Positions 12,792-38,590 of a DNA stretch of 44,068 nt are shown piece by piece. Location: the IMG/VR virus record IMGVR_UViG_3300034102_003027, positions 1 to 44,068 of that record. One strand, 5' to 3'. Both the position numbers and the translations under genes were made by a program. The notes under the pieces are model-generated. The model made no database searches and had not been told where the DNA came from. It saw only the letters and a list, made by a program, of their open reading frames with translations. Origin of the DNA: a virus. Position 1 is the first letter of the stretch, and every line of letters starts with the position of its first letter.

Positions 12792-13103
12792 ATGGCACAG
12801 AGCGATACCCGCACACGAATCAAACCATCAGAGGCTGTAAAAGAGCCGCCCATGTTCAAAGTTATCTATTTGAATGACAATCAAACCACAATGGATTTTG
12901 TTGTAGACAGTTTGATTGAATATTTTGATTACACTGCCGAAACAGCCGAACAAATCACTGTGGATATCCATCAAGCCGGCCAGGCCACTGTGGCAGTGTT
13001 GCCTTATGAAATTGCCGAACAAAAAGGCATTGAAGTAACACTCAGTGCAAGATCGCAGAGTTATCCACTGCAAATCAAATTAGAACCCGAAACTGTAAAT
13101 TAA
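12792..13103 (+). CDS. clpS: ClpS, N-degron adaptor
   Basis: A 103-residue ClpS, near the usual 106. After a disordered N-terminal tail comes Pro-Pro-Met-Phe-Lys-Val-Ile, then Asn28-Asp29-Asn30 and Met34, which align with E. coli Asn34, Asp35, Asp36 and Met40, and His60, which aligns with His66; these form the pocket for the destabilising N-terminal residue. ClpS delivers N-degron substrates to ClpA. No clpA is in this window, so it would work with the host ClpA or steer it. The second Asp of the pocket is Asn here. It has an AAGGAA site and shares a TTAA with the convergent phosphoesterase. Confidence 0.9.
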   Translation: MAQSDTRTRIKPSEAVKEPPMFKVIYLNDNQTTMDFVVDSLIEYFDYTAETAEQITVDIHQAGQATVAVLPYEIAEQKGIEVTLSARSQSYPLQIKLEPETVN

Positions 13104-13888
13104 TCGTCTACAACAATACGCAAGGGATGGTACACATATTGACGCCACTCAGTATCTCCCCGACCCCTGCAGTTGTTGACAAACCGTACACCTTGGCGTA
13201 TTTGATCCACTGATCCATGATAGTGACCAAAGCACCAGGTATGCAACTTCTTTTCTAAATCTGCACTCAATGCTCGCATCATGAATCCATTGCCCATTGT
13301 GTTAAATCGCAAAGTATCAGCAAGACCAATGTCATGTGCAATCAAACTAGAATTGGGCACAGTGTGTGTTACACAAACAATTTTTCGAACATCATGATGA
13401 GTTTGCAGTCGTTTGATACTGGTAGTCATATAAGTGGCATCTGTGGTGGCCAATCGTCCCACAGTTTTGGCCACAGTGCCGTTGACTTTGCACTGGTCTT
13501 GGAACCATAATGATGTTTGTTCTGCATCAATCGAAGGATCAAGATCGTAGGTCCACCAACCGTTGGTACCTACAATTGCAACTCCATCAACCACTACAAC
13601 ATTGTCTTGCAAAAATACCACGTTGGGTATTTTTTTTAATCGGCGAGCAAGATCAGCATAACTGGCATTCAAATCGTCGTAATGATATCGATGTTCGTCA
13701 TTGCCGTCAACATAAAACACTGCCTGATAACATTGACCAAGATGTTTCAGTGTGTTTACTACTACTTCTCGATCTCGTGCAAGGTCGCCGGCCACAATAC
13801 AATAAGGACTTGTGGCCAATCCAGTCCAATCAAATTCCGCCCAGGTTTCTGCATGTAAATCAGAAATTAAATCAAACGCAATACTCAT
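13100..13888 (-). CDS. Calcineurin-like metallophosphoesterase (first copy)
   Basis: A 262-residue protein with the metallophosphoesterase motifs in order: Ser-Asp-Leu-His near residue 9, Gly-Asp-Leu near 34, Gly-Asn-Asp-Glu-His near 62 (family form GNH[DE], here with an inserted Asp), His in Thr-His-Thr near 174 and Gly-His-Tyr-His near 220. It should bind two metal ions and hydrolyse phosphoesters; the substrate (nucleotide, nucleic acid or protein) is unknown. A similar enzyme lies at 37757. The stop codon shares TTAA with clpS. Confidence 0.87.
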   Translation of the reverse strand: MSIAFDLISDLHAETWAEFDWTGLATSPYCIVAGDLARDREVVVNTLKHLGQCYQAVFYVDGNDEHRYHYDDLNASYADLARRLKKIPNVVFLQDNVVVVDGVAIVGTNGWWTYDLDPSIDAEQTSLWFQDQCKVNGTVAKTVGRLATTDATYMTTSIKRLQTHHDVRKIVCVTHTVPNSSLIAHDIGLADTLRFNTMGNGFMMRALSADLEKKLHTWCFGHYHGSVDQIRQGVRFVNNCRGRGDTEWRQYVYHPLRIVVDD

Positions 13889-17146: not shown

Positions 17147-18166
17147 TTATTTCTTGATCTGTGTCCAAACATCACTACGGATGCGATCGGTCACTGCTTT
17201 TGGCAGCGGTACATAATCAAGTTCTGTGGCTAATTTCCCGCCATTTACAAATGCCCAGTCAAAGAACTTGATGGTTTCTTGACTGGCTTTTGCATTCTTT
17301 GGTTCACGGTACATGAGAATAAATGTTGCACCGGTGATGGGCCATGACTGTGCGCCCTTTTGATTTACCAAACTGATGCCCATGCCTGGTGTTGAGAACC
17401 AATCAGCACCTGCGGCTGCGGCTGCAAATGTCAGGTCATCTGGTCCTACCACATTGCCGTCGCGATTCTGCAATTTTACATAGGTCATTTTGTTTTTCTT
17501 GGCATAGGCATATTCCACATAGCCAATTGAATTTTTAACACGGCCCACATTGGCTGCAACACCTTCATTGCCTTTGCCACCTACACTACTGGCAGCTGGC
17601 CATTTCACGGCAGCACCTTTGCCCATTTTTTCAGCCCATGGTTTGCTGACTTCATTCAAATAGTCAGTGAAGATAAATGTTGTACCAGAACCATCTGCAC
17701 GATGCACAACTGTGATAGACTCTGCAGGCAACTTGACTTTGGGGTTTAACGCTGCAATCTTGGCATCGTTCCAGTGTGTGACTGTGCCCAAGTATATATC
17801 TGCCAGCACTTCACCAGTTAACTGCAACTCACCAGGTCGGATGCCTTCTACATTGATGATTGGCACAACACCGCCCAACACTGTGGGGAACTGAACCAAT
17901 CCGCTTGCTGTTAACTCGTCACCTTTTAGCGGTGCGTCTGTGGCACCAAAGTCCACTGTGGCTGCTTTGATCTGTTTGATACCACCTGAACTGCCAATGC
18001 TTTGATAGTTCAACTGAACGTCAGTTTTGACTTGATATGCTTCACTCCACTTGCTATAAACAGGATAAGGGAAAGTTGCCCCTGCCCCTGTGATTGAAGT
18101 TTGTGCATTTGCTGATGGTGACATCAAGTACACGGATGCCGCAATGACTGCTAAGATTTTTTTCAT
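17147..18166 (-). CDS. pstS: PstS, periplasmic phosphate-binding protein
   Basis: A 339-residue PstS. I choose ATG 18166, preceded by AAAGGA and starting a clean signal peptide (Met-Lys-Lys-Ile-Leu, cleavage after Ala-Asn-Ala). The mature N-terminus has Thr-Gly-Ala-Gly-Ala-Thr-Phe-Pro, and the phosphate-binding segments include Ser-Ile-Gly-Ser-Ser-Gly-Gly and Arg-Ala-Asp-Gly-Ser-Gly-Thr-Thr. It captures phosphate in the periplasm for the host PstABC transporter. Phage pstS is well known in marine cyanophages and boosts phosphate supply during infection. A PhoB-like box lies upstream, so host phosphate sensing probably controls it. Confidence 0.95.
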   Translation of the reverse strand: MKKILAVIAASVYLMSPSANAQTSITGAGATFPYPVYSKWSEAYQVKTDVQLNYQSIGSSGGIKQIKAATVDFGATDAPLKGDELTASGLVQFPTVLGGVVPIINVEGIRPGELQLTGEVLADIYLGTVTHWNDAKIAALNPKVKLPAESITVVHRADGSGTTFIFTDYLNEVSKPWAEKMGKGAAVKWPAASSVGGKGNEGVAANVGRVKNSIGYVEYAYAKKNKMTYVKLQNRDGNVVGPDDLTFAAAAAGADWFSTPGMGISLVNQKGAQSWPITGATFILMYREPKNAKASQETIKFFDWAFVNGGKLATELDYVPLPKAVTDRIRSDVWTQIKK

Positions 18167-18204
18167 GTGTTTTTTCCTTTGTGAATTTGTGCGGTGCACA
18201 GAAT

Positions 18205-18210
18205 TATTTA
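18205..18210 (-). promoter_or_regulatory. Probable -10 / TAAATA element upstream of pstS
   Basis: TTAAATAATT on the minus strand lies about 10 bases after the PhoB-like box, the usual distance of a -10 element in Pho promoters. It also matches the phage TAAATA motif, so it may serve either polymerase form. Confidence 0.5.
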
Positions 18211-18221
18211 AACACAAAGAT

Positions 18222-18239
18222 GTTACAGTAATGTTACAA
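18222..18239 (-). promoter_or_regulatory. PhoB-like box upstream of pstS
   Basis: The minus strand reads TTGTAAC-ATTA-CTGTAAC: two 7-base half-sites in direct repeat with a 4-base AT-rich spacer, the architecture of a PhoB box (CTGTCAT-N4-CTGTCAT). A -10-like TAAATA follows at the right distance. The box overlaps the stop codon of the small upstream gene. Confidence 0.7.
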
Positions 18240-18386
18240 TGGCTTGACTTTTTTGTTCTTTTTGAGCGGACCTGTTGCCTTGGCTTCTTCTAGCATGCGT
18301 TCTGCAGCAGGTGTTGTTTGGGGAGGATGGTATACGTGGTGTTTTTGGGGTTCGTGTCGTCTTGGGGCTCGTTTAAACCAACTCAT
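18234..18386 (-). CDS. Small basic phage protein (50 aa)
   Basis: A 50-residue frame starting Met-Ser-Trp-Phe-Lys-Arg, with a Pro/His-rich middle and a Lys-rich end. AAAGGAACC precedes the ATG at the right distance. Short Trp-Phe-Lys-Arg starts followed by Pro-rich middles are seen in small proteins of T4-like marine phages. Its end overlaps the PhoB-like box of pstS. Function unknown. Confidence 0.6.
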   Translation of the reverse strand: MSWFKRAPRRHEPQKHHVYHPPQTTPAAERMLEEAKATGPLKKNKKVKPL

Positions 18387-37371: not shown

Positions 37372-37779
37372 ATGACAGACATAGGACAGTTTATCATGGA
37401 ATTTGGCGACTTTTTGATTTGGTTTGGCATTGGTTGGGTAATCACCAATTTGGTATTGAGCCTGCTGGCATTCTTGTTGCGTCGGCACATTGAACAGTCA
37501 ATGGAGTCGGAACTTACAGGGGTAGGTCAGGCCTTGGATGAAGAACGGTTGATTGCACTCACAGTAGAAGTTGACCAGAATCAGTATTTCTGTTATAATA
37601 GTATCACAAAAGATTTTGTGTGTCAGGGTTCGGACTTGACAGAAATACGTGAACGATTTCGTGCCAGATATCCTGACAAGGATGCAGCCATTTACGATGG
37701 TGATCAAACAGCAGTGGCCACGCTGAAATCACAACTCAAAGAATTAAAGAAACAAAATGAAAATAGCATTGGTATCTGA
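37372..37779 (+). CDS. Single-pass membrane protein
   Basis: A 135-residue protein with a hydrophobic segment at about residues 13-36 (Phe-Leu-Ile-Trp-Phe-Gly-Ile-Gly-Trp-Val) and a mixed alpha/beta soluble C-terminus. It lacks a Shine-Dalgarno sequence but has TAAATAT immediately before its ATG. It overlaps the second phosphoesterase gene by 23 bases. Function unknown. Confidence 0.65.
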   Translation: MTDIGQFIMEFGDFLIWFGIGWVITNLVLSLLAFLLRRHIEQSMESELTGVGQALDEERLIALTVEVDQNQYFCYNSITKDFVCQGSDLTEIRERFRARYPDKDAAIYDGDQTAVATLKSQLKELKKQNENSIGI

Positions 37780-38590
37780 CGTACACCTGGAATTTGGTGA
37801 CCTGGATTTTGACAACACAGACTCGGCAGATGTGTTAATCTTGGGTGGCGACATCTGTGTGGGTGCGGACATGGCACAACGTGATCCCTACAACACCATG
37901 GGTGAAGAGTATCGTAGCAACAGATTCCATGACTTCTTTCAACGATGCAGTGCCAGATTCCCGCATGTGATTTTCATTGTGGGCAATCACGAACACTATC
38001 ACGGTGACTTTGCCAAGACTGTGCCGCACTTTAAAGATGTGTTGGGATATTTAAAAAACTTGCACATCCTGGAAAAAGAAACCTTTGTGTTGGATGACAT
38101 CACATTCATTGGCGGCACATTGTGGACTGACATGAACAAACGCGATAACAGAACCTTGCATGATATCTCACGCATGATGAACGATTTCCGTTGTGTGGAC
38201 AACAGTGCCAAAACTGAAGATCATCGCGGTTGGCCTGGTCGTTTTACCACCGTAGATGCAGCCAATGATCATGACGCCATGGTGGCATTTATTGACCAAA
38301 CCATTGCAGCCAATCCTGCAGGACGCTATGTTGTGGTGGGGCATCATGCACCTAGCAAACTGAGTACCCATCCAAGATATCAAGACCAGTTCATCATGAA
38401 TGGTGGCTACAGTAGTGAACTGGATGACTTTATTCAGGATCACCCGCAGATCAAATTGTGGACACATGGTCATACACATGAGGATTTTGACTATATGATC
38501 GCTGGTTGCCGAATCTTGTGCAACCCAAGAGGCTACATCAACTATGAAGAAAGGGCAGACACATGGCGACTGAAAACAGTGGAAGTATAA
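37757..38590 (+). CDS. Calcineurin-like metallophosphoesterase (second copy)
   Basis: A 277-residue enzyme with a complete motif set: Ser-Asp-Val-His near 7, Gly-Gly-Asp-Ile near 31, Gly-Asn-His-Glu near 75, Gly-His-His-Ala near 195 and His-Gly-His-Thr-His near 237. It is closer to the canonical form than the copy at 13100. Substrate unknown; phage members are often proposed to remove phosphates from nucleic acids or nucleotides. The stop region overlaps the next gene by 28 bases. Confidence 0.9.
   Translation: MKIALVSDVHLEFGDLDFDNTDSADVLILGGDICVGADMAQRDPYNTMGEEYRSNRFHDFFQRCSARFPHVIFIVGNHEHYHGDFAKTVPHFKDVLGYLKNLHILEKETFVLDDITFIGGTLWTDMNKRDNRTLHDISRMMNDFRCVDNSAKTEDHRGWPGRFTTVDAANDHDAMVAFIDQTIAANPAGRYVVVGHHAPSKLSTHPRYQDQFIMNGGYSSELDDFIQDHPQIKLWTHGHTHEDFDYMIAGCRILCNPRGYINYEERADTWRLKTVEV

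Follow-up and report, generated by a model that had tools for sequence, protein, structure and literature searches.

The window, a 44-kb virus record from IMG/VR, carries on its minus strand an intact pstS gene preceded by a compact, promoter-like arrangement of motifs (Table 1). On that strand, positions 18239–18205 read TTGTAAC-ATTA-CTGTAAC-N10-TTAAATA, and the longer stretch leading into the gene reads TTGTAAC-ATTA-CTGTAAC-ATCTTTGTGT-TTAAATA-ATTC-TGTGCACCGCACA-...-AAGGAA-...-ATG. There is a single zero-mismatch occurrence of TGTAACNNNNNTGTAAC in the window. An earlier, sequence-only reading of this DNA had described two 7-base half-sites in direct repeat with a 4-nt spacer, a −10-like element about 10 bases further on and a position ahead of pstS. 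The coordinates and spacings of the half-sites prove correct, on the minus strand and with a period of 11 bp; the distance from the second half-site is 10 nt to TTAAATA, or 11 nt to TAAATA; and the gene that follows is intact, with its ATG at 18166. In the window and in close relatives, a 50-aa open reading frame ends within half-site 1.

Table 1. Features at the predicted pstS promoter and related genes in the window
Feature	Position	Strand	Basis
Metallophosphoesterase gene	13100..13888		phrog_1649
pstS, intact, 339-aa periplasmic phosphate-binding protein, N terminus signal-peptide-like	17147..18166	-	phrog_5385 E 1.2e-66; PDB PstS chains E 3e-112
AAGGAA, Shine-Dalgarno-like, preceding pstS ATG	18174..18179	-	sequence
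Short inverted repeat TGTGC-ACC-GCACA at predicted mRNA 5′ end	18188..18200	-	sequence; leader comparison
TTAAATA, late-promoter-like −10 element	18205..18211	-	sequence; scans; relatives
Predicted PhoB half-site 2, CTGTAAC	18222..18228	-	sequence; matrix
Predicted PhoB half-site 1, TTGTAAC	18233..18239	-	sequence; matrix
ORF, 50 aa (MSWFKRAPRRHEP...KPL*), TAA stop inside half-site 1	18234..18386	-	close relatives
Metallophosphoesterase gene	37757..38590		phrog_1649

Scoring against a PhoB matrix, which had been proposed as a check on the site, gives a borderline result for the half-sites alone. With a matrix built on TGTCATAAAANTGTCATA, a motif that emerged de novo from the regions upstream of 75 pstS genes of freshwater Burkholderiales, the half-sites score 13.4 bits and rank third in the window, and 1.2 equal matches are expected in shuffled sequence. 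The whole layout fares far better: a 34-bp matrix trained exclusively on phage sites ahead of genes other than pstS assigns the window site 35.5 bits, a score reached by none of 100 dinucleotide shuffles, and the runner-up position 14.1 bits. The half-sites alone are only moderately convincing, and the whole layout is the decisive evidence, arguing that the predicted promoter is not a chance match.

The layout closely resembles that of proteobacterial Pho promoters such as those of pstS and phoB, in which two half-sites with an 11-bp period stand in place of the −35 element and the −10 element lies exactly 10 nt downstream. Of 78 pstS promoters from bacteria, 75 have TAnnnT starting exactly 10 nt past half-site 2, which is also where the phage TTAAATA starts. 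The phage sites differ from these promoters in having TTAAATA where the bacteria have TAnnnT, and in their TGTAAY half-sites; the bacteria with the closest PstS have TGTCAT half-sites, whereas those of the window are of the TGTAAY type. When 399 genomes of the order Burkholderiales were scanned blind for the pattern TGTAAY-N5-TGTAAY-N10-TANNNT, 36 sites were recovered, compared with 5 for the reversed pattern used as a control, and the TGTAAY type proved to be a minority, present in 29 of the 399 genomes sampled. Half of the 30 sites that were read precede pstS (13 matched by the window PstS and 2 of another type), and the genes behind some of the others resemble phoB regulators, pstC (one case) and porins, as called by eye from N termini. 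At one more of these sites, the TGTAAY Pho box stands ahead of a bacterial homologue of the phage phosphoesterase described below.

The spacing is also strict in viral sequences. We scanned IMG/VR for TGTAAYNNNNNTGTAAY with TTAAATA after it at any distance of 7–13 nt; counts from the TGTAAY scans are samples, drawn from the matches listed. The gap is 10 nt, exactly as in the window, at 103 of these 124 TGTAAY sites (7 nt, 7 sites; 8 nt, 2; 9 nt, 2; 11 nt, 8; 12 nt, 1; 13 nt, 1) and, after near-copies are collapsed, at 69 of 81. With TGTCAY half-sites, 26 of 27 IMG/VR matches have a 10-nt gap. Replacing TTAAATA with TATAAT gives a weak peak at the same gap (31/121, or 23/85 with near-copies collapsed, among the matches listed), and almost every pstS relative with a forward box has a complete TAAATA. 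Upstream of pstS at eight other loci, Pho-like 11-bp repeats read better in the reverse direction, perhaps serving a divergent gene.

Genes related to phosphate follow the element at most of the 185 distinct sites among the matches listed: the next gene encodes PstS at 78 sites, a calcineurin-like metallophosphoesterase ('YRSIFISDVHLGTKD') at 55 and a Na/Pi cotransporter (PF02690, E 2e-16) at 3. Together with the strict spacing and the occurrence of the same half-sites before bacterial pstS, phoB-like, pstC-like and porin-like genes, these downstream genes support the earlier proposal of a Pho-regulon promoter layout. Also among the 185 sites are 9 ahead of a coiled repeat protein (MRFEDLAARL...), each with a strong 5′ hairpin, and 8 ahead of a 319-aa membrane protein. 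For the latter, sequence searches of Pfam, PHROGs and the PDB returned zero matches, so that the label 'PiT-like' is an impression only. Phage phosphoesterase genes behind the element mostly have their ATG 4–5 nt past TAAATA, which predicts a leaderless mRNA. At five related phosphoesterase sites the form is unfused: the box is followed at gap 10 by TATAAT, and TGTAAATA stands apart, a little further downstream and just ahead of the ATG. The window itself contains two more metallophosphoesterase genes (Table 1), the first of which has TTAAATA immediately ahead of its ATG and no Pho box.

The PstS proteins behind the element belong to more than one lineage. That of the window is of the betaproteobacterial type, matching a Betaproteobacteria genome at 68% and cyanophages at no more than 37%. 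In a rough FastTree tree, phage PstS sequences are spread over several clades among bacterial ones, with at least three separate phage groups carrying the element; six changes between phage and bacterial rows are required, at least four of them forced by well-supported branches. With several PstS lineages and varied phosphate genes lying behind it, the element is a module joined to phosphate genes. In a DNA comparison with isolated phages, the window matched them in a UDP-glucose dehydrogenase and an endonuclease only.

The sequence-only reading had also held that the −10 element fits the phage late motif. Here the support comes from relatives and not from the window, in which TTAAATA (7 occurrences, compared with 5.3 in shuffles) and TATAAATA with one mismatch (31, compared with 28) show no enrichment. 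Among the words enriched upstream of genes in the closest two long contigs, of 148 and 225 kb, 7-mers containing TAAATA are top or near-top, and some TAAATA sites in related contigs precede structural genes. Sigma genes of the gp55 family occur in 5 of the 13 records searched, each of the five being a long relative that bears the element; none turned up in the window, nor in the closest two long contigs, which are possibly fragments. The gp23 gene was discarded as a late-promoter anchor, there being no TAAATA within the 56–220 nt directly upstream in the three relatives with a readable start. Late promoters have the consensus TATAAATA in T4 and NATAAATA in cyanophage S-PM2 (PMC2984593). The phage pstS sites share with T4-type late promoters a TAAATA core upstream of genes, but add an upstream activator box and prefer T over A before TAAATA: the preceding base is A at 58 of 135 generic late-like sites, whereas at the pstS-linked Pho sites, whose sequences are related to one another, so that p-values for the contrast come out too strong, it is T in 21 of 30 and never A. 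A T that suits the sigma-70 −12 position, with the remainder suiting the late element, fits the look expected of a compromise promoter.

We conclude that the window site joins a predicted PhoB box to a late-promoter element of the phage, within a phage-borne Pho regulon. In the mechanism that we propose, phosphorylated host PhoB would bind the two 11-bp-spaced TGTAAC half-sites, which would replace a −35 element, and the bound PhoB would recruit RNA polymerase to TTAAATA, 10 nt downstream, so that phosphate shortage in the infected cell would turn on phage pstS. The TTAAATA would double as a T4-type late element, used by the late polymerase, and since its register is that of the host −10, a single start site probably receives both signals. 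We assign a probability of roughly 0.75 to this reading, that is, to a Pho promoter that is PhoB-dependent under phosphate stress and also gives gp55-type late expression from the same element; PhoB binding, promoter output, the start site, the sigma factor used and the time course are what we infer from the sequence.

The alternative that host polymerase alone reads TTAAAT, as a plain sigma-70 −10 element behind a PhoB box, with the likeness to the late motif having no function, seems to us somewhat unlikely. It would account for the T before TAAATA at pstS-linked sites, which resembles the sigma-70 −12 base where generic late-like sites favour A, and for the phage sites that have TATAAT at gap 10. 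It sits poorly, however, with the T that the phage element places at −11 in the host register, where 75 of 78 host promoters keep an A, and with the near-complete retention of TAAATA, the late-like motif of these phages, in forward-box pstS relatives. The opposite simplification, a late promoter alone with half-sites that are inert leftovers of a host pstS promoter captured with its gene, is consistent with the general occurrence of TAAATA in these phages as a late-like element ahead of genes, structural ones included. Yet the box turns up with its exact gap ahead of unrelated phosphate genes as well as in distinct PstS lineages, and inert leftovers would be expected to decay rather than recur, which makes such a history very unlikely.

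Hardly credible is an origin of the repeat by chance or by coding constraint, in which half-site 1 would be conserved because the 50-aa ORF has its stop codon there. TTG TAA does close that small ORF in the window, and a CTG or TTG TAA ending is also found at five related loci, but the alignment contains relatives that keep the box without the overlap, including one with a TAG stop before the box, and the statistics of the 10-nt gap would be left unexplained; the relatives and the gap counts already contradict this account.

The compromise promoter that we favour poses the question of how a host activator that normally partners sigma-70 works at a promoter based on a phage late element. PhoB contacts region 4 of sigma-70, and gp55 is without that region, so that PhoB may be unable to help the late polymerase. 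It is possible, though we think it unlikely, that host PhoB acts directly on the gp55-type late polymerase and that the phage Pho regulon (pstS, phosphoesterase and phosphate transporters) is thereby phosphate-tuned throughout infection; if so, a host stress regulator would be an activator of phage late transcription.

Control of cyanophage pstS by host PhoBR has already been reported for P-SSM2 and S-SM1, as cited in PMC10976474, and the parallel with these genes drawn by the sequence-only reading holds in function but not in sequence. In both cases, a T4-like aquatic phage carries pstS, with expression through the host phosphate sensor reported there and predicted here. Cyanobacterial Pho boxes, however, have the form CTTA-N7-CTTA (PMC3037559), whereas the window combines half-sites of the proteobacterial type with a betaproteobacterial PstS, and within the few hundred bases upstream of seven cyanophage or marine-virus pstS genes we found neither TAAATA nor a TGTAAY pair. 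Predictions of Pho boxes can fail: the computed box ATTCAAACTCGCTTAAATA at hsp20 of S-PM2d, which contains TTAAATA, is not bound by PhoB and the gene is unresponsive (PMC10976474). No fusion of a Pho box with a late promoter is described in the phage paper PMC3037559, and text matches to 'PhoB' in two coliphage papers turned out to be the program Phobius.

What appears to be new here is the predicted fusion of proteobacterial half-sites with a late element at the spacing used by the host, common to several phosphate genes. Control of phage genes by the host phosphate sensor would thereby extend past cyanophages and take in a wide range of aquatic phages with proteobacterial-type PstS, and the signature TGTAAY-N5-TGTAAY-N11-TAAATA would single out the phage Pho regulon. 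The same arrangement, a predicted switch that joins the phosphate-starvation signal of the host to the late-gene signal of the phage, recurs in many aquatic viruses upstream of genes related to phosphate.

Another close analogue is found in the promoters of cyanomyoviral psbA, for which excerpts of PMC5931967 propose that one motif serves both sigma-70 and Gp55. As at the window site, a single motif is thought to serve the early and late polymerases and the leader has a 5′ hairpin; the features described in those excerpts differ in not including a phosphate activator box. In the pstS relatives, an inverted repeat past TAAATA is present in about half of the leaders, with stem bases that vary in some. 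The window hairpin is TGTGCACCGCACA, relatives have the alternative stems GAAGC/GCTTC and GTACC/GGTAC, and CGCAATGTTGCG occupies a comparable position in the pstS leaders of Polynucleobacter.
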